64,000 nt of DNA from the NCBI RefSeq assembly GCF_001583495.1, contig NZ_LQAQ01000099.1:130001-194000 (forward strand). The letters are read 5' to 3'. The notes under the pieces were generated by a model, which was not told where the DNA came from, did no database searches, and saw only the letters and a list, made by a program, of their open reading frames with translations. Made by a program: the position numbers and the translations under genes. This document shows, piece after piece, positions 1-44,307 of the stretch. The first letter of the stretch is position 1; every line of letters begins with the position of its first letter. The stretch is from Flammeovirga sp. SJP92. GTDB lineage: Bacteria; Bacteroidota; Bacteroidia; Cytophagales; Flammeovirgaceae.

Positions 1-1682
<1,682 letters not shown>

Positions 1683-34355: not shown

Positions 34356-35759
34356 ATGGGCCAACAGAAACTGAAGGGTAAACACCTTCGTGCCATTCAA
34401 TATGCTTCGAATAAAGCCATTAGTCTTGCTGTTCAAATAATGGCGAAGCATTATAAACATACCTCAATGCAAGATCAATTAACGTTGCTTGAGGACATCA
34501 AAAACAATTATTCGAAATACTTGGAAGATGAAGTACTATCACCAATTGCCAAAGTATTTCAACCAGAAATTAATGTTCAACGAAAGCAGGTAGAACTCTT
34601 ATCGGAAGCCAAAGATTTTAACGTTTTCGGACGTCAACATATCAGTAGCAATGCCTACCAACAAATGCGATGGGCAATGAAATTACCAGTGGTGCATAGT
34701 GGTGCTATGATGCCGGATGCTCACCAAGGATATGGACTTCCTATTGGAGGTGTTTTAGCGACCAATAATGTGGTCATTCCTTACGGTGTGGGGGTTGATA
34801 TTGGTTGCCGAATGAGTTTGACGATCTATCCGCTTCCAACAAATTTCTTAAAGCGATATGAGTACCAAATCAAAAAAGCCTTAAAGGAATATACCAATTT
34901 TGGTACAGGTGGAGAATTGGGTATCGCTCAAGAGCATGAAATCTTGGACCGAGAAGAGTTTTTAGCAACGCCATTATTGCGACAGTTACACGGAAGAGCA
35001 GGGAGACAATTAGGAACTTCAGGTTCGGGAAATCACTTCGTGGAATTCGGGACGGTAATGCTTCCAGCTGACAATCCTTTTGATTTAGAAGGAGGTGAAT
35101 ATGTCGGTTTGCTTGCTCACTCCGGTTCGAGAGGGTTAGGAGCTACGGTTGCCAATCATTATACTTCTATTGCTAAAGAAAAATGCCTTCTTCCGTCACC
35201 CACTCAAAACTTAGCATGGTTGGATTTGAATACTCAAGAAGGACAAGAATACTGGCTTTCGATGAATCTGGCAGGAGATTACGCCAAAGCTTGTCATGAT
35301 CAAATACATTATCACTTGGCAAAAGCTTTAGGAATTAAAGCTGTAGCGAAAGTAGAGAATCATCACAATTTTGCTTGGAAAGAAAAGCAAGCAGATGGAA
35401 CGGAATGTATTGTGCATCGAAAAGGAGCAACTCCAGCAGGAAAAGGCGTATTGGGAATCATTCCAGGCTCCATGACTGCCAATGGCTATATCGTGCAAGG
35501 TAAAGGTGAAAATGCCTCTCTTCAATCGGCTTCTCATGGTGCAGGCCGTCAGTTTTCTCGATCAAAAACAAAAGAGAAAATGACGGGGAGTCAACTCAAA
35601 AAAATCCTTCAAAAAGAACAAGTGACTTTGATTGGAGGAGGTTTGGATGAATCGCCAATCGCTTACAAGAACATTGAAGAAGTGATGAAAAGCCAAACCA
35701 ATTTGGTAGATATAGTGGGGACATTTTCTCCCAAAATAGTTCGAATGGATAAAGCGTAG
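34356..35759 (+). CDS. rtcB: RNA ligase RtcB (PrfH-linked)
   Basis: RtcB joins RNA 3'-phosphate (or 2',3'-cyclic phosphate) ends to 5'-OH ends using GTP and Mn2+. The 467 residues show the family hallmarks. The Mn-binding core is [15 protein letters not shown], then [10 protein letters not shown] with Asp149 and Cys151, [18 protein letters not shown] and VENHHNFAW. The guanylylated His lies in SASHGAGR (His394). An N-terminal extension of about 75 residues ([19 protein letters not shown]) is shared in kind with the second RtcB of the window. ATG start. prfH follows, its start overlapping or nearly touching the stop, so they are co-translated. PrfH-linked RtcB is known to repair 16S rRNA cut at the decoding centre after PrfH rescue. 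Symbol is the family name; this is one of two rtcB genes here. Confidence 0.95.
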
Positions 35760-35764
35760 TGAAG

Positions 35765-36415
35765 ATGGGAAAGAGTAATTTAGAATTATTTATTCAGATC
35801 ACCTCAGGAAGAGGTCCGGCTGAGTGTTGTTGGGTAGTCGCTAAACTTTTGAAAGAAGTATTGGATGATTTGAAGTCAAAAAATATCAATCATCAAGTGC
35901 TTTCTAGGTCAGAAGGTCCTTTGCATCATACCATCAGTTCAGTGCTTATTAAAGTAACTGGAAATGATTTGGAAGAGGAACTGAAGGAGTGGAAGGGAAC
36001 CATTCAGTGGATTGGGAAAAGTCCTTTTAGGAAGTTCCATAAACGAAAGAATTGGTTTGTCGCCATTGATTTCTTCCAAGAAAAAGCGGTCGAAAAATTG
36101 AATACCAAAGACCTGCAATTCCAAACATTTAGGGGATCAGGGCCTGGAGGTCAGCATCGAAATAAAGTGGAAACAGCCGTTCGTGTCATTCACCTTCCAA
36201 GTGGTATTAGTGTGGAAGTCTCGGATGGAAAATCTCAGCATCAGAACAAGCAAAAAGCATTGGAGAAGATGAAAGAGAAGTTTGAGCTTTTACGCCTTGA
36301 ACAGACCAAAGAAAAATTGGAACAGCAATGGATGAATCATCTAGCCTTGGAAAGAGGTAATGCAGTGAAGGTTTATAAAGGAACAGAGTTTAGAGAGGTA
36401 AGAGGGATGAGGTAA
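35765..36415 (+). CDS. prfH: peptide chain release factor H
   Basis: A release-factor-like protein of about 216 residues. The ATG at 35765 is preferred; a GTG at 35759 overlapping the rtcB stop is also possible. The catalytic GGQ motif is in [18 protein letters not shown], followed by [20 protein letters not shown], both family-typical. The N-terminus ([22 protein letters not shown]) matches PrfH, whose domain contacts the decoding region, rather than RF1/RF2, since codon-recognition segments are missing. PrfH hydrolyses peptidyl-tRNA on ribosomes damaged in the 16S decoding centre so that RtcB can reseal the rRNA. Tight coupling with rtcB supports this. Confidence 0.93.
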
Positions 36416-37912: not shown

Positions 37913-38935
37913 TTATGAGGTTTCTTCATCCTGATAAAGTTCCAATCCTTTCAAAAGTACCTTTTTCATTTTATTCCTTAATTTTAAAGGGGCTAACACT
38001 TCAAGCGATGCTCCAAACCCTAAAAGAAGACGTTCCAATTCGTAATTAACATGGACCGTTATTTCGACAGTAATACTACCATCCTTTTCTTTGCTAAGAA
38101 CTTTTTGAGAATGATGCAAAGGTTTTGTTACTACATAAGGGGCATTTTTTCGATCAATTTTTAATTGAATGGTTTCAACATATTCGACAGGGTGAACAGT
38201 GACACCGATTGTGTTTTTATAATATTCATCTCCATTAAATCCGTCATTATTATACTCTTTTTCAAAATCATAATTGATATTGATGATCCGGTCTAAAGCT
38301 AATGTTAATATTTCACGTTTTCTTTTTCTACCAATCACAAACCATCTATTGTTGTATTCCTTCAAAATATAAGGAGTGAGATTAATGGATGAAGGCACTC
38401 TTGAAGTAAAAGATTGATATTCTATCACTAGGCAAACCTTTTTAAGAATCGCTTGATATAAAGTATCCAAATGTTCTAGCCCTTTTAAACCTTCATTTTT
38501 ATCTAAATGAATAATAGCATTTTGGTCACTTTTTTCACTGTAGACTTTATCTTCTAGTCTTTGTATGATGCCATTTAATTCAGAAAAAAGAGAGAAGTCT
38601 TTAAACTGTTTGAGCATTTCTACCGATTCAGAAAGAACACTCATATCATTTTCAGTCAAAGGAATATTGGTGATGGAATAATCCTCGTCTTCATATTTAT
38701 AATACTTTCGATCATAAACTATAATAGGAGCATTATAACCGAGTTTATCACTTCTCATCATTTGAATATCCAATTGAATACTTCTTTTACTCACATTAAT
38801 ATCCCTTCCCTCGTATTCAAAAAGAGCTTCCGAGCATTCTTCAATCAAGTCATTCAAAGTCCATTTTCTGTACTTATTCTGAAGACATTTGTCGATGGTT
38901 TTATAGCGAATTAGAGCGTTTTTATTTTGTGCCAT
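37913..38935 (-). CDS. WYL-domain transcription regulator
   Basis: 340 residues. The N-terminal part (about 1-80) is a winged-helix DNA-binding region (WTLNDLIEECSEALFEYEGRDINVSKRSIQLDIQMMRS). The rest is the WYL ligand-sensing domain, with the core block NNRWFVIGRKRKREILTLALDRI (W-F-V-I-G...L-D-R-I). WYL regulators commonly bind nucleic acid or nucleotides and control defence or RNA-repair genes. It is divergent from the second rtcB, with a perfect inverted repeat between, so it probably controls that gene and itself. ATG start. Confidence 0.92.
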   Translation of the reverse strand: MAQNKNALIRYKTIDKCLQNKYRKWTLNDLIEECSEALFEYEGRDINVSKRSIQLDIQMMRSDKLGYNAPIIVYDRKYYKYEDEDYSITNIPLTENDMSVLSESVEMLKQFKDFSLFSELNGIIQRLEDKVYSEKSDQNAIIHLDKNEGLKGLEHLDTLYQAILKKVCLVIEYQSFTSRVPSSINLTPYILKEYNNRWFVIGRKRKREILTLALDRIININYDFEKEYNNDGFNGDEYYKNTIGVTVHPVEYVETIQLKIDRKNAPYVVTKPLHHSQKVLSKEKDGSITVEITVHVNYELERLLLGFGASLEVLAPLKLRNKMKKVLLKGLELYQDEETS

Positions 38936-38960: not shown

Positions 38961-38983
38961 ACTACGCAAAATGATTGCGTAGT
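38961..38983. promoter_or_regulatory. inverted repeat between WYL gene and rtcB (candidate operator)
   Basis: ACTACGCAA, 5-nt spacer, TTGCGTAGT: a perfect 9-bp inverted repeat in the 88-bp divergent gap. It lies just before a TTTG-ending box (CACCTTTG at 38991-38998) that could be the rtcB -7 region. A binding site for the WYL dimer is the natural inference. Confidence 0.6.
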
Positions 38984-38999
38984 AGCCTTTCACCTTTGA

Positions 39000-40394
<1,395 letters not shown>

Positions 40395-40396
40395 CC

Positions 40397-40477
40397 GAAG
40401 GTCAAGCATAAGTTACTTCAATTCCCTTCCTGAACTCACTTATGTAATTACCTTCATTCGGGACAGTAGTTCAGTTG
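40397..40477 (+). ncRNA. decayed copy of the RNA array start
   Basis: Three bases after the rtcB stop, 40397-40455 repeats module 41413-41470 with few changes (stem GAAGGT/ACCTTC; inner stem GCATAAGT/ACTTATGT). The following bases (GGACAGTAGTTCAGTTG) match the first 5' strand and D arm of the tRNA-like RNA, then similarity fades into unrelated sequence at about 40478. It is the leftover from a duplication split by the HEPN-like gene and the repeat element. Confidence 0.7.
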
Positions 40478-40528
40478 TTGTAACTTACATTATCAAAATT
40501 TAATATACTTTTAAAAGAACTATTGAAT

Positions 40529-41161
40529 ATGGAGATGAGCCCCAAGTTCGAAAAGGAACTAATCAATAATGTAATTGAAAGTCTATATGCTTCTGGAGTT
40601 TTCACCGAAGATGATATCAAGGATAAAGAGTCATATATTTCAGGCCTTAAACGAATCATCGATAATGGAATTGTTGACGGAATTACAATTGTAACTGATC
40701 ATACTGAAAGTTTGACATTAAAAGCAAGAGAATGTCAAAAAGCTAAAGAATTCGATTATGCAAGAATATTTTATGCAACTTTTTTTGAGCACAAGGTTAA
40801 TGACCTAATATCTCTATATTGTATTAGAAATGGAATTGATTTAAAAACTCAGATTTCAATTATAAAATCAGTAAATATATTAGGTAAGTTTACTTGGTTA
40901 CTGGAACTAATGAAGTATCCTAAGTTCAATAAAAAACATCTATCTACAATTTTAAAGCTAGCTGATTCTAGGAATTCATTTGTCCATTACAAGTGGAAGG
41001 AAGATCCAGAATTAAATAATGAAATTGATTGGGATAAAGAAAAGTTGAGAATTGACTCTGAATTTGAGAATATTGAAAAAACAGTAAAGTATTTCAAAAA
41101 CTATTGTAGTAAACTAAAATTCAAAGGGAAAAAAGGACAGATTAAAAAGATAGTGAAGTGA
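40529..41161 (+). CDS. HEPN-like small protein
   Basis: About 210 residues; the ATG at 40529 is taken (an upstream in-frame TTG adds two residues). All-helical. The C-terminal half contains ADSRNSFVHYKW, an R-x4-H motif (Arg148, His153 by this start), the catalytic signature of HEPN ribonucleases, with the surrounding pattern of HEPN proteins (helix, RN...H). HEPN domains cut RNA in toxins and defence systems. It lies between the two copies of the RNA array start, downstream of an RNA ligase that can rejoin such cuts. No antitoxin-like partner is adjacent. Family assignment comes from the motif and helical profile, not from a search. Confidence 0.6.
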   Translation: MEMSPKFEKELINNVIESLYASGVFTEDDIKDKESYISGLKRIIDNGIVDGITIVTDHTESLTLKARECQKAKEFDYARIFYATFFEHKVNDLISLYCIRNGIDLKTQISIIKSVNILGKFTWLLELMKYPKFNKKHLSTILKLADSRNSFVHYKWKEDPELNNEIDWDKEKLRIDSEFENIEKTVKYFKNYCSKLKFKGKKGQIKKIVK

Positions 41162-41389: not shown

Positions 41390-41412
41390 TTAAGTTTCTA
41401 TACAAAATAACC

Positions 41413-41470
41413 GAAGGTCAAGCATAAGTTACTTCAATTCCCTTACTGAACTACTTATGCCATTACCTTC
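41413..41470 (+). ncRNA. RNA module B (motif hairpin)
   Basis: Outer stem GAAGGT/ACCTTC (41413-41418, 41465-41470); then CAA opposite CATT; inner stem GCATAAGT/ACTTATGC (41422-41429, 41453-41460); unpaired TAC; then TTCA/TGAA around an AT-rich loop. The sequence motif is GGTCAA, helix, TTACTTC on one strand and ATTACC on the other. Four nt later the tRNA-like RNA starts. Confidence 0.75.
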
Positions 41471-41474
41471 ACCC

Positions 41475-41600
41475 GAGACAGTAGCTCAGTTGGTAGAGCA
41501 TAAGGGATAATATTTAAATTACCATTTACGATGGTCAATAAATATTTACTGCTATCATTGGTTAATCTTAAGGTCGTGGGTTCGAGTCCCACCTGTCTCG
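41475..41600 (+). ncRNA. tRNA-like RNA with 53-nt insert in the anticodon loop
   Basis: A full cloverleaf: acceptor GAGACAG/CTGTCTC (41475-41481, 41593-41599; C41474 and G41600 add a pair); TA; D arm GCTC-AGTTGGTA-GAGC; anticodon stem TAAGG/TCTTA (41501-41505, 41566-41570); variable AGGTC; T arm GTGGG-TTCGAGT-CCCAC, with canonical T-loop. The anticodon loop is 60 nt (7 is normal). The insert folds as GATA/TATC-type closing pairs, ATATTTA/TAAATAT (41510-41516, 41539-41545), AATTACC facing GGTCAA, and ACCAT/ATGGT with a TTACG loop; TTACTGC follows the 3' arm. No CCA is encoded. The loop ending GGTTAA would give GTT (Asn) but lacks U33, so I call it a tRNA mimic, not a decoding tRNA. Confidence 0.85.
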
Positions 41601-41601
41601 C

Positions 41602-41727
41602 TAAAAGGTCAATTGTATCTTACTACTATGAGGTTCGAGTCCTCACTTAGATGTCGGTTTTTAAAGATACAAGTACTAGGACAAAATGTCCCTTTTCTTC
41701 TGTTCTAGTACATAAAATTACCTTTTA
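41602..41727 (+). ncRNA. RNA module C with T-arm mimic and side hairpin
   Basis: Outer stem TAAAAGGT/ACCTTTTA (41602-41609, 41720-41727) followed by CAA and ended by ATTACC. The second helix TTGTATCTT/AAGATACAA (41613-41621, 41664-41672) encloses TACTAC and a perfect T-arm copy, TGAGG-TTCGAGT-CCTCA (41629-41645). A second hairpin GTACTAG/CTAGTAC (41673-41679, 41705-41711), with GGAC/GTCC inside, lies between the second helix and ATTACC, giving a three-way junction. Confidence 0.65.
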
Positions 41728-41731
41728 TGGA

Positions 41732-41797
41732 TGAGGTCAATGCTTTCTTACTTCCACACGACTCAAAATCGCTAGATAGAGAAAGCAAATTACCTTC
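41732..41797 (+). ncRNA. RNA module D
   Basis: Outer stem TGAGGT with ACCTTCA (one bulge), CAA, inner stem TGCTTTCT/AGAAAGCA (41741-41748, 41780-41787), then TTACTTC after the 5' strand and AATTACC after the 3' strand. A short CGA/TCG pair closes the apical region. Same motif as modules B and E with unrelated helix sequences. Confidence 0.75.
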
Positions 41798-41870
41798 ACA
41801 GGTCAACTATTACTTACTTCAGAGGGTTACCTCACTAGGTTAGGGATTTAGAAGTAATAGCATTACCTGT
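41798..41870 (+). ncRNA. RNA module E
   Basis: Outer stem ACAGGT/ACCTGT (41798-41803, 41865-41870), CAA, inner stem CTATTACTT/AAGTAATAG (41807-41815, 41852-41860), TTACTTC straddling the end of the 5' strand, CATTACC after the 3' strand. An extra hairpin GAGG-GTTA-CCTC lies at the apex. Helix sequences differ from the other modules while motifs stay, which argues for a conserved fold. Confidence 0.78.
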
Positions 41871-41883
41871 AACTACCATAACA

Positions 41884-41907
41884 GCCCACAACAAATAGGT
41901 TGTGGGC
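41884..41907 (+). terminator. hairpin closing the RNA array
   Basis: GCCCACAAC (41884-41892) pairs perfectly with GTTGTGGGC (41899-41907) around AAATAG. No immediate T-run (CTCATTAAATTTT follows), so a leaky terminator or a processing/stability hairpin 17 nt before the 745-aa gene. Confidence 0.5.
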
Positions 41908-41924: not shown

Positions 41925-44162
41925 ATGATGAAAAACGAATTACAAAAAGTAGCTATTCGTAATGGGGCATTGTATGTGCCATTAAAAGAGATACCCCAAA
42001 AAGCAGTGATCACAGCGATCACAAAATCATATATCCGCCTTTTTGAAGAAGTGGGATTTTATTTCTCCAATGATCTATTACTTCATTTAAATGCAGTTTC
42101 ACCTACAGAAAAAACGGCTATTTATGCCGTTGTACAAGAGGTTCTTGGCTTAAAGAAAAATTGGACACCACTGATCAAAGCATGGGATCAACCCTCGAAG
42201 ATTACATTTGGTGATCAAGTGATTACTTGGTTGTCCAATAAAATGGGTTCCCAAAGCGGTTACCTTTTACCATGTGATCATGTCATTCCTGAAGGCACAT
42301 TTAATATTGATGACTTCAATGGTTGTCCTCATTGTGGTACACCTTTCGAAGTGGGGAAGTTAATGTTGCAGGATGAAGGGAAAAAGCTTAAAAAATTAAG
42401 TCTTTGGACAGATCAAGAATTAGAAAAATATTTTCACGGGTTACTAGTCTCTGCAGTTGCATTGGATGCCACGCAGGTAGAGAACCTTCAGATTTTATTA
42501 AAACACTTTGACTTTCCTGAAGGTGCACAAATTGTGATGAAGGAAACAAAGATGTTGGTGATTGATACATTGACACAACAAAATGAAATCAGAAAGGCCA
42601 ATCAGTTTTTCCAATCTCCTAATGATGTCTTAAGGTATTTATGGTATAAACATACTGGTTATTTACAACTTGTAAAACCAAAAGTGATTATCAAAAGAAA
42701 AGGGATCAATGCTGTCAATATCCATCGACAAATGGATGCTCAACAAGCCACAAAGAAGAAGGCGACTGACGCTTTGAAATTGAAATTTTCAAGAAAGGAA
42801 GCGAAGGTTTATGCTTATTGGCTGAATCGTTTATCCATGAATATCCAACAGCAATGTGAGGACATGCACCCTAATAGAGGAATGTGGGTTAGAGTGATCA
42901 GAGCCTTACGTTTGGGGGAGTTGAGTAAAAGAAAAGGATATGAAAAGCTCGCTCAATTAATGGATACTTTTTATAATCAAAACTATACCGTTTGGCAGGG
43001 TAGAGTGAATCATTTTAAGCTGAAGCTTGATGCTGAAAAGACTTTTACTTTGTTGAAGCAACGTCCAGGATTATTTGCAAGATCTTTATTTGCCAATATG
43101 CTTTGGTTTGGTCCAGAAGTAACTTTGAAGCACTTTAAGGAAATTGTAAATCAATTGCCATCACGCTTGATCTACACTTTGAATATGTATGCGGATACCT
43201 ATTTTGACCCTAGTTCAGATAGAGTGGTAAAACCTTTGGGCGGGACATCGAAAAGAATTCCGAAAAACCACTTGTTGCAAGCTTATATGGAGGAAGATTT
43301 GAAGAAGATGGTCAATCAAATCCACCAACTGACTTTTGAGAAAATCAAAGAGAAGTTGGAGCAGGAAGAAGTCAAACCACATAGTATTTATATCGACCCA
43401 CAATTGTATAATATTCCTTTTGCGATTGGGGAAAGAAGTAATCATATCCAAGATTTGAATCACGTTCCTACAGGAGCAAGGTTCCCGATTGAGGGAGATA
43501 AAGTCCGTCTGTTTATGCAATGGGGAGAAGGGTTGCCGGCTCAACATTTGGATATGGATGTAAGCTGTATGGTGATTTATCCTGAAAAAGCAGAGTTTTG
43601 CTCTTACTCCCAACTGAATATCGGAGGTTGTAAACACAGCGGAGATATACAGCAGATTCCAGAAAAAGTTGGAACAGCAGAATACATTGATGTTGATGTC
43701 GCTTACTTGCAGAAGTGGGGAGCGAAGTACGTTTATTTTACTTCCAATGCCTACACTAACGGAAGCCTTAGCCCGAATATGATGGTCGGTTGGATGAATT
43801 CAGAATACCCGATGACCATTTCCGATACAGGCGTAGGGTATCATCCAGCACATATTCAACAGCACATCAAAATCAAAGAAGGCTTAGCCAAAGGTTTACT
43901 TTTTGGAATATTGGATATCCAAAAGCGGGAAATGATTTGGTTGGAAATGGATTTCAGTGGTCAAGTCGTTCAAAATATGAACTTGAAAACAGTAGAAAGC
44001 TTGATGCAAAAAATGGAGGCCAGAATCAAAGTAGGAGATATTCTGAAGCTAAAAGCAGAAATTCACCAACTCACCATTACAGAAAATCAAGAAGAAGCAG
44101 ATCAAGTTTATGATTTGAAATGGGCTAGCGATCCGAATGAACTTAATCAGTTTTTGTTGTAA
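41925..44162 (+). CDS. large protein with Cys/His cluster and TerD-like C-terminus
   Basis: 745 residues, not recognised as a whole. Residues about 112-140 contain CDH...CPHC (Cys117, His119, Cys134, Cys137), a likely zinc site. Residues about 285-430 are helical with Tyr/Trp and basic residues (AYWLNRLSMNI, GMWVRVIRALRLGEL, KRKGYEKLAQLMDTFY), plausible for nucleic-acid binding. Residues about 525-640 resemble TerD/stress proteins: HLDMDVSCMVIYP, GGCKHSGDIQQIPEK, and TAEYIDVDVAYL. The C-terminal 105 residues are mixed. It directly follows the RNA array, with ATG ATG start 17 nt after the closing hairpin, so array and gene may share a transcript. A scaffold or binder of the array RNA is my inference; the TerD likeness is by eye. 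Confidence 0.7.
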   Translation: MMKNELQKVAIRNGALYVPLKEIPQKAVITAITKSYIRLFEEVGFYFSNDLLLHLNAVSPTEKTAIYAVVQEVLGLKKNWTPLIKAWDQPSKITFGDQVITWLSNKMGSQSGYLLPCDHVIPEGTFNIDDFNGCPHCGTPFEVGKLMLQDEGKKLKKLSLWTDQELEKYFHGLLVSAVALDATQVENLQILLKHFDFPEGAQIVMKETKMLVIDTLTQQNEIRKANQFFQSPNDVLRYLWYKHTGYLQLVKPKVIIKRKGINAVNIHRQMDAQQATKKKATDALKLKFSRKEAKVYAYWLNRLSMNIQQQCEDMHPNRGMWVRVIRALRLGELSKRKGYEKLAQLMDTFYNQNYTVWQGRVNHFKLKLDAEKTFTLLKQRPGLFARSLFANMLWFGPEVTLKHFKEIVNQLPSRLIYTLNMYADTYFDPSSDRVVKPLGGTSKRIPKNHLLQAYMEEDLKKMVNQIHQLTFEKIKEKLEQEEVKPHSIYIDPQLYNIPFAIGERSNHIQDLNHVPTGARFPIEGDKVRLFMQWGEGLPAQHLDMDVSCMVIYPEKAEFCSYSQLNIGGCKHSGDIQQIPEKVGTAEYIDVDVAYLQKWGAKYVYFTSNAYTNGSLSPNMMVGWMNSEYPMTISDTGVGYHPAHIQQHIKIKEGLAKGLLFGILDIQKREMIWLEMDFSGQVVQNMNLKTVESLMQKMEARIKVGDILKLKAEIHQLTITENQEEADQVYDLKWASDPNELNQFLL

Positions 44163-44182
44163 GGAAGCATTGAAGCTATGCG

Positions 44183-44240
44183 AGTGCTAGGACTTACATA
44201 GTGTACATAGTAGCATGTACATCATGTAAGTCCTAGCACT
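44183..44240 (+). ncRNA. long perfect hairpin in the island's 3' end
   Basis: A 17-bp perfect stem (44183-44199 with 44224-44240), a 2x2 internal loop, then 7 bp (44202-44208 with 44215-44221) and a 6-nt loop. It is followed by more TGTAC-rich inverted repeats up to about 44296. Such a long hairpin is not a terminator (no T-run). It could be a structured RNA or a recombination/mobile-element site. Confidence 0.6.
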
Positions 44241-44307
44241 TGCAATATGTACGTCTCTGCATGTACAGTGTGTACGTGCTGGGATGTACTAGTACAATGC
44301 TTTGGTG

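Follow-up and report, generated by a model that had tools for sequence, protein, structure and literature searches.

A tRNA-like RNA of Flammeovirga sp. SJP92 that is probably a circularly permuted Y RNA with tRNA termini

The window, i.e. the whole 64,000-nt stretch of Flammeovirga sp. SJP92 DNA analyzed here, encodes an RNA that has the arms of a tRNA and, in its anticodon loop, a putative protein-binding module of the kind repeated in the surrounding array. To judge from its sequence and from those of its relatives, the reading that fits this RNA best is a circularly permuted Y RNA whose termini are those of a tRNA, and the RNA is probably part of a Ro60-like particle. The features of the locus are collected in Table 1.

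Table 1. Features of the tRNA-like RNA, its module array, and neighboring genes in the window
Feature	Position	Strand	Basis
WYL/WCX regulator gene, divergent from the cluster	37913-38935	-	Pfam WYL 4.5e-11, WCX 1.9e-14
Palindrome CTACGCA-N7-TGCGTAG, putative operator	38962-38982	.	perfect match; between the WYL and RtcB genes
TTTG element after the palindrome	38995-38998		
Second, divergent RtcB RNA ligase gene	39024-40394	+	Pfam RtcB 2.4e-35
Standalone module, duplicate copy left of the apparent insertion	40400-40452	+	pattern match; 98% repeat of 41404-41452
5' remnant of a tRNA-like RNA, after the duplicate module	40460-40483	+	read from sequence
Standalone module GGTCAA-GCATAAG-TTACTTC...CTTATGC-C-ATTACC	41416-41467	+	pattern; fold z -4.5
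tRNA-like RNA, read as a probable circularly permuted Y RNA	41475-41600	+	RF00005 55 bits
Acceptor stem of the tRNA-like RNA	41475-41481/41593-41599	+	read from sequence
D arm of the tRNA-like RNA	41484-41499	+	read from sequence
Permuted module in the anticodon loop (stem 41510-41516/41539-41545, ATTACC 41518-41523, GGTCAA 41533-41538, TTACTGC 41546-41552)	41510-41552	+	
T arm of the tRNA-like RNA	41576-41592	+	read from sequence
Standalone module with a T-arm-like hairpin (TGAGGTTCGAGTCCTCA) and an extra hairpin	41607-41722	+	fold z -3.05
Standalone module	41735-41794	+	pattern; fold z -2.8
Standalone module	41801-41867	+	pattern; fold z -4.1
745-aa protein gene	41925-44162	+	NF041916, Prok-RING_4, fold comparisons
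RING4-type zinc finger, helical domain, and TerD domain of the 745-aa protein	residues ~113-138, 158-486, and ~520-690		

The tRNA-like RNA has a completely paired acceptor stem (7/7 pairs), D stem (4/4), and T stem (5/5), its discriminator is G41600, and the CCA end is not encoded. The Rfam tRNA model (RF00005, gathering score 29) matches the full length of the RNA with 55 bits, and with 42.3 bits when the whole genome is searched, whereas ARAGORN, run over the whole window, reported no tRNA gene. The canonical, fully paired arms of the original prediction were thus recovered, as was its 60-nt anticodon loop with a 53-nt insert. Indeed, in place of the 7-nt loop with an anticodon that is expected of a tRNA, there is a loop that spans 41506-41565 and is 53 nt longer than normal. 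It is closed by the stem TAAGG/TCTTA, which has five of five pairs, one being G.U. This anticodon stem is absent from the minimum-energy fold of the window RNA; across 53 such RNAs it is paired at 3.98 of 5 positions versus 2.86 in 1000 shuffles (maximum 3.15), i.e. above chance. The fold energy of the whole 126-nt RNA has a z score of -2.57, with 2 of 200 shuffles as good, and that of the insert alone has a z score of -1.81, with 9 of 200 shuffles as good.

The insert folds as AUAUUUA-A-AUUACC-loop-GGUCAA-UAAAUAU and is therefore, as originally claimed, a hairpin bearing the motif of the array, with AUUACC/GGUCAA next to a 7-bp stem. The common plan of the modules is GGTCAA, 7 bases, TTACTTC, a loop, the complement of those 7 bases, one base, and ATTACC. 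In the tRNA-like RNA the two halves of the module change places: the 7-base complement comes first, followed by ATTACC, a short loop, GGTCAA, the 7 bases, and TTACTGC. Several other features of the array are worth recording. A 39-nt hairpin (GTACTAGGACA...TGTTCTAGTAC) at 41673-41711 lies within one of the modules, beside ATTACC, and is missing from the Flammeovirga aprica copy. Between 40388 and 41500, a 1-kb unit with an open reading frame (40523-41161) is flanked by duplicates of the first module plus tRNA start, which agree at 98% over 49 nt, and the ∼1 kb between the RtcB gene and the tRNA-like RNA looks like a later insertion. F. aprica has a different sequence ahead of its own duplicated module, and the array therefore seems to collect cargo. 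A 30-nt inverted repeat (90% complementary) is found at 44179-44244, right downstream of the 745-aa protein gene.

Relatives were identified via the gene for the 745-aa protein, which is present in 47 of the 390 genomes of the order (a count that includes the genome of the window), and were complemented by 36 loci in named genomes and by three Bacteroidota plasmids. The resulting set comprises 56 distinct loci, counting the window, each of which has 300 nt or more of sequence upstream of the gene. The motif lies upstream of the 745-aa gene in 55 of these 56 loci, in 196 copies, none of which is antisense; 4 copies fall inside the first 1500 nt of the 745-aa genes. Only L037 lacks it, and the two tRNA-like RNAs of this locus are degenerate. 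A finder was run over 53 loci with nothing but the acceptor, D, and T arms as its criteria, which means that intact arms in the relatives are demanded by the search. It detected tRNA-like RNAs whose anticodon loop contains the motif in 37 of the 53 loci; in the other 16, this strict finder returned no tRNA-like RNA. Pairing within the insert was assessed starting from 60 distinct tRNA-like hits, 50 of which have a readable motif pair (at least two of the 10 that were dropped resemble normal tRNAs). In these 50 RNAs, a few of which are near-identical, the 7-bp insert stem is paired at 6.18 of 7 positions, compared with 4.35 when the partners are shuffled (4.78 at most in 2000 shuffles), and 36 aligned RNAs display four to five pair types at each of the seven positions. 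GGT/ACC is swapped for GGA/TCC or GGA/TTC in 8 of 166 modules that were selected for pairing at six or more of the seven positions. The insert is thus neither absent nor random in relatives, either of which would have told against the original prediction. Some RNAs harbor nested modules, two per RNA (e.g. L005, L007, and L064, as assessed by eye), and several tRNA scaffolds are in use (GCTCAG..., GTGTAATGG...).

At the level of genomes, the strict module pattern is found in 38 of 390, and 33 of these 38 encode the 745-aa protein, which makes it the steady partner of the tRNA-like RNAs. The five pattern-positive genomes without the protein have one hit each, 14 of the 47 genomes with the protein have no exact module pattern, and a reversed control of the pattern gave three hits. 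The Fisher value for the co-occurrence, 1.5e-31, is not a clean probability because the genomes are related. Taken together, these comparisons indicate that the RNA belongs to a conserved system. Modules are also seen far from the 745-aa gene (G080:C1:377162-377318, ∼46 kb away) or on contigs other than that of the gene (G123:C115 and C125, G141:C64), and the strict pattern hits of G088 and G123 are likewise on other contigs. A phage search gave 7 records, none covering 80% of the query, and a plasmid search 22 records, 7 of which have 80% cover. All three Bacteroidota plasmids that were examined carry modules and two also carry a tRNA-like RNA (by eye). The cases beyond Bacteroidota (Campylobacteraceae and Spirochaetia) are short contigs of metagenome bins and are possibly misbinned.

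The same data bear on one alternative, namely that an ordinary tRNA gene was broken by a mobile hairpin and has been kept by accident. A broken copy would be tolerable in a genome with 91 Rfam tRNA matches, 41475-41600 among them, and both a duplicated stretch and an insertion are close by. However, the same insert, with the same motif and at the same position, recurs in many relatives and displays covariation, and the acceptor, D, and T stems are intact. We find this alternative scarcely credible, considering that conservation already refutes it.

The circularly permuted Y RNA reading emerges from a comparison with the RNAs encoded next to TROVE (Ro60) genes, which are present in 92 of the 390 genomes. 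Beside many TROVE genes there is a canonical RNA form, consisting of GTGYCGTAG, 7 bases, TTACTTCG, the T arm, the acceptor 3' strand, a loop, the acceptor 5' strand, TA, the D arm, the 7-base complement, and TTRCC. A search for the motif plus 7-bp stem beside TROVE genes detected RNAs in 24 of 32 records, some of which overlap. Full RNAs with T and D arms, 24 of them distinct, were obtained from 16 of the 32 records, and all have the full cyclic order. TTACTTC follows the stem in 49 of 50 RNAs of TROVE loci, a number that is partly built into the search. Both kinds of RNA share one cyclic order: binding stem 5' strand, 7-bp stem, UUACUUC, T arm, acceptor, D arm, 7-bp stem, and binding stem 3' strand. 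They differ, by sequence, in where they end. Canonical RNAs end at the binding stem and have a closed acceptor, whereas the tRNA-like RNA ends at the acceptor and has a closed binding stem.

We built a profile of canonical Y RNAs from the 24 full TROVE-locus RNAs and scored 53 tRNA-like RNAs from 37 records against it, both as encoded and in all rotations. The rotation that starts at GGTCAA outscored the native order in 53/53 RNAs, with a median of 45.2 versus 21.3 bits, and no other rotation was more than 0.5 bits better. For the window RNA, the score rose from 18.7 bits to 46.4 bits. As a control, 36 distinct normal tRNAs from 20 stretches of this genome were treated in the same way; at their best rotation they have a median score of 24.9 bits and do not exceed 39.2 bits. 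Among the rotated tRNA-like RNAs, 33 of the 53 score above the best rotated normal tRNA and 20 do not, and part of the gain stems from the tRNA arm order alone. The nine RNAs below 25 bits are all on other tRNA scaffolds. The rotated RNA of L060 aligns with the canonical Y RNAs through non-tRNA sequence, CTTACTTCG...TTTTAATG (the TTACTTCG...TTTTAATG stretch). When canonical and rotated RNAs are folded jointly, the consensus contains only the T, acceptor, and D helices and loses the module stem, which is recovered when either set is folded alone. It is the same cyclic order, together with the gain upon rotation in every RNA, that argues for a circularly permuted Y RNA. A small hairpin after UUACUUC, considered as a retained anticodon arm, was rejected as it was not above shuffles.

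The Rfam YrlA model (RF02553, gathering score 69) has no hit in the window at its gathering score. It matches the TROVE-locus RNA of L075 with 42.9 bits (E 3e-6) and has no match in the other five of the six TROVE records scanned. Many TROVE genes carry arrays of several Y RNAs (L073, L075, L077, L082, L083, and L105-L124), and 0 of the 6 scanned records reached YrlA gathering. Among four non-TROVE records scanned, the sole YrlA match is in L012, which has five tandem tRNA-like RNAs; the full model spans two neighboring ones from module to module (34.2 bits, E 1e-3). This match across two units suggests a route by which RNA ends could shift, i.e. tandem copies being read in another register. 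In L074 (G141:C280), a TROVE gene is directly preceded by a window-type module (GGTCAAGCAAGCGTTACTTC...ATTACC), which links the two systems. TROVE is commoner in genomes with the 745-aa protein (23/47) than in those without (69/343), and therefore the protein is not a mere substitute for Ro60. In the genome that contains the window, TROVE has no match.

The ∼1-kb distance to an upstream RtcB gene, part of the original prediction, was measured as 1.08 kb, the gene ending at 40394. A pair formed by another RtcB and release factor H (prfH) is located at 34356-36415, ∼3 kb before this second RtcB, so that two RNA repair gene sets adjoin. RtcB of the window subtype was found in at least eight fetched loci (the window/L001, L005, L007, L008, L030, L032, L035, and L063), which is a lower bound because many records have 1.5-kb flanks only. 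A close orthologue, defined by a cut-off set in this analysis (E below 1e-170), is encoded in 18 of 47 genomes with the 745-aa protein and in 27 of 343 without it (p 2e-7, not corrected for descent). RtcB is thus a frequent, not a constant, companion of the system. The palindrome that precedes the RtcB gene is the only site of its pattern in the 8.49-Mb genome when up to one mismatch is allowed, and a reversed control also gives one site. If one mismatch is tolerated, 21 of 56 loci have it upstream of the 745-aa gene, versus 0 of 560 shuffles, and if two are tolerated, 26 of 56 do, versus 8 of 560; with up to three mismatches it occurs in 33 of 56 loci, but in 81 of 560 shuffles too. The palindrome is a putative operator, which the WYL protein would bind.

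With an RtcB gene so close, the RNA could be a splicing or repair substrate: the 53-nt insert would be excised, or the loop cut under stress, RtcB would join the halves, and the cut RNA would act as a damage sensor. The recurrence of this type of RtcB in at least eight loci, window included, and the enrichment of close orthologues speak for such a role, as does the insert sitting where tRNA introns and anticodon nucleases act. On the other hand, 29 of the 47 protein-bearing genomes are without a close orthologue, even if other RtcB genes are possible, and the element order is that of a Y RNA rather than exon-intron-exon. Unlike an intron, the insert bears a conserved motif that also exists as standalone modules, and because of this the intron/splicing reading was set aside. 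Furthermore, YrlA fragments were reportedly not seen under the Salmonella nuclease (PMC7790460). We consider an RtcB substrate very unlikely. Of the roles offered originally, that of a tRNA-like scaffold is therefore supported and can be named, as a Y RNA in tRNA order, whereas that of an RtcB ligation substrate or sensor is not supported as such, the steady partner of the RNA being the 745-aa protein.

The 745-aa protein matches NCBIfam NF041916 (MXAN_6230/SCO0854) over residues 42-684 with an E value of 2.1e-39 and 135.4 bits, below the cut-off of 600. Prok-RING_4 scores 20.5 bits, below Pfam's 27, and is a weak match in all 30 members scanned (E up to 0.1). The predicted structure of the whole protein has a mean pLDDT of 81.6, and the helical domain predicted alone reaches 90.9. 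The TerD domain was identified by structure (Z 14.1 to 3ibz, 147 residues, rmsd 3.2). For the helical domain (329 residues), Ro60 structures rank first to third, with Z 8.3 (rmsd 5.9, 236 residues), 7.5 (6.7, 253), and 7.3 (6.4, 253), values of 7-8 being reachable by chance for helical repeats; the next match has Z 6.5 over 106 residues. Foldseek alone, queried with the helical domain, found nothing under E 0.001 and no Ro60 among the best 50. Ro60 was not among the matches listed for the whole protein and emerged only with the helical domain alone, so its absence from the whole-protein search is meaningless. TROVE homology by sequence was rejected, since PF05731 has no match in the window protein or among the families of the 30 members (E up to 0.1), and profile-profile comparison with TROVE by HHalign gave E 0.84. 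Ro60 carries a von Willebrand factor type A (vWA) domain where the 745-aa protein carries TerD; a vWA domain is absent after the helical domain of the latter, and its place is positively matched by TerD structures. Considering that Ro60 provides the top matches while neither Foldseek nor sequence provides a link, we describe the protein as Ro60-like in predicted fold, which is suggestive only, and not as a TROVE member. A Streptomyces member of the MXAN_6230/SCO0854 family, the one inspected by eye, has no similar RNA in the 0.6 kb upstream, and a literature search for MXAN_6230 and SCO0854 found no paper. A distant RING finger family 4 relative on a Variovorax plasmid (L071) is near an rtcR gene, again beside RNA repair genes.

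How the system might work can be outlined as follows. Gene order and the palindrome point to one transcript from a promoter beside the WYL gene, which would comprise RtcB, the modules, the tRNA-like RNA, and the protein message, although the 1-kb insertion in the window may have altered this. With ends that pair as a genuine acceptor stem, the RNA could be cut out by the enzymes that process tRNAs (RNase P and a 3' processing enzyme), and its excision would separate, or free, the neighboring modules. The 745-aa protein, itself a putative divergent Ro60-like protein, would bind to the GGUCAA/AUUACC stem, including the internal loop, and to the 7-bp stem that flanks it, and the standalone copies in the array would allow several RNAs to be bound. 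The core is conserved in both connections, and the modules may thus bind the Ro60-like protein in either connection; this would be why permuted forms survive. The tRNA body or T-arm hairpin might be an effector, tether, gate, or decoy of the particle, as is proposed for YrlA (PMC8394870, PMC7790460). The pathway would be RNA processing, decay, or repair with RtcB, as RtcB and Ro60 biology suggest. Both protein binding by the RNA and its function are, in this outline, what we infer.

A different use of the same sequences is conceivable, in which the array, tRNA-like RNA included, is a cis leader of the 745-aa gene, and the protein binds its own mRNA leader (or tRNA-binding factors bind it) to tune expression, with no free particle. 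This would fit an array that is upstream of the gene and on its strand in 55 of 56 loci, a tRNA-like RNA that in L058 ends right before the start codon, and a terminator-like hairpin (GCCCACAAC/GTTGTGGGC, 41884-41907) that lies between the array and the gene and could set the ratio of RNAs to message. It fits less well with homologous RNAs being downstream of the gene in several TROVE loci (e.g. L073, L075, L082, and L083) and with modules being distant (∼46 kb in G080, other contigs in G123 and G141), and a full tRNA-type acceptor and elbow would be superfluous for a leader. We regard a leader without a particle as unlikely, and the leader and Y RNA readings can both be true.

Beyond the circularly permuted Y RNA itself, these findings suggest that Ro-type particles have a second, hidden branch and that tRNAs and Y RNAs are linked. 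In its full form, this proposal states that MXAN_6230/SCO0854-like proteins of Bacteroidota (perhaps also of some Campylobacteraceae and Spirochaetia) are a second, unrecognized branch of Ro60-type ribonucleoproteins with their own RNA arrays and, in addition, that the tRNA-ordered RNAs are living tRNA/Y RNA intermediates: the anticodon loop of a tRNA would have acquired a Ro-binding stem, after which tandem copies would have let the ends move, yielding canonical Y RNAs, or the reverse. We see this combined proposal as evenly balanced between right and wrong. We know of no explanation why Y RNAs look like permuted tRNAs. A natural family with Y RNA parts in tRNA order would make the origin of Y RNAs testable by comparison. 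Furthermore, an annotated protein family gains a partner RNA and a fold, both likely, and the Ro-Y RNA-RtcB gene set is seen in a further version, one that stands beside a WYL regulator. The arrays supply numerous naturally varied forms of the presumed binding site, among them circular permutants, and offer a strong handle for biochemistry. The system is not described in the literature that was searched, but parts may be in print in the main papers on Y RNAs and in the RNA repair survey of 2016.

Among known systems, the closest parallels are with bacterial Y RNAs, whose layout is a stem formed from the two ends plus a tRNA-like domain (PMC8394870), and of which the solved YrlA superimposes on tRNAs with circular permutation (PMC11472068). 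Like YrlA with Rsr/Ro60, the window RNA combines a tRNA-like body (D, T, and acceptor arms) with a putative protein-binding stem in place of the anticodon arm, keeps to the same cyclic order, and lies beside RtcB and a gene of possibly Ro60-like fold. Unlike YrlA, it ends by sequence at the acceptor and not at the binding stem, which is internal and closed by a loop, and it has GGUCAA/AUUACC where Y RNAs have GGUGYCGUAG/UURCC; its partner protein is not TROVE by sequence and the RNA has no Y RNA match at Rfam gathering. Set against the TROVE family (PF05731), the 745-aa protein has a predicted helical domain whose best structural matches are Ro60, which is suggestive only, and its gene lies beside Y-like RNAs and, in the window, RtcB; it differs in having no detectable sequence similarity, a RING-type finger in front, and TerD at the place of vWA. 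The match to MXAN_6230/SCO0854 (NF041916) covers residues 42-684, yet 135 bits against a cut-off of 600 indicates a separate branch. In gene content, the RtcB linkage parallels that of known rsr-Y RNA-rtcB operons (PMC7790460), where Salmonella rsr-yrlBA-rtcBA unites a Ro60-type protein, a tRNA-like Y RNA, and RtcB in one operon. The window has a WYL gene and a palindrome instead of RtcR, and no RtcA was found among the 16 window open reading frames scanned with Pfam. Finally, the module resembles the vertebrate Ro60 site in broad form, a seven-pair helix beside bulges, with differing details (PMC4726728).
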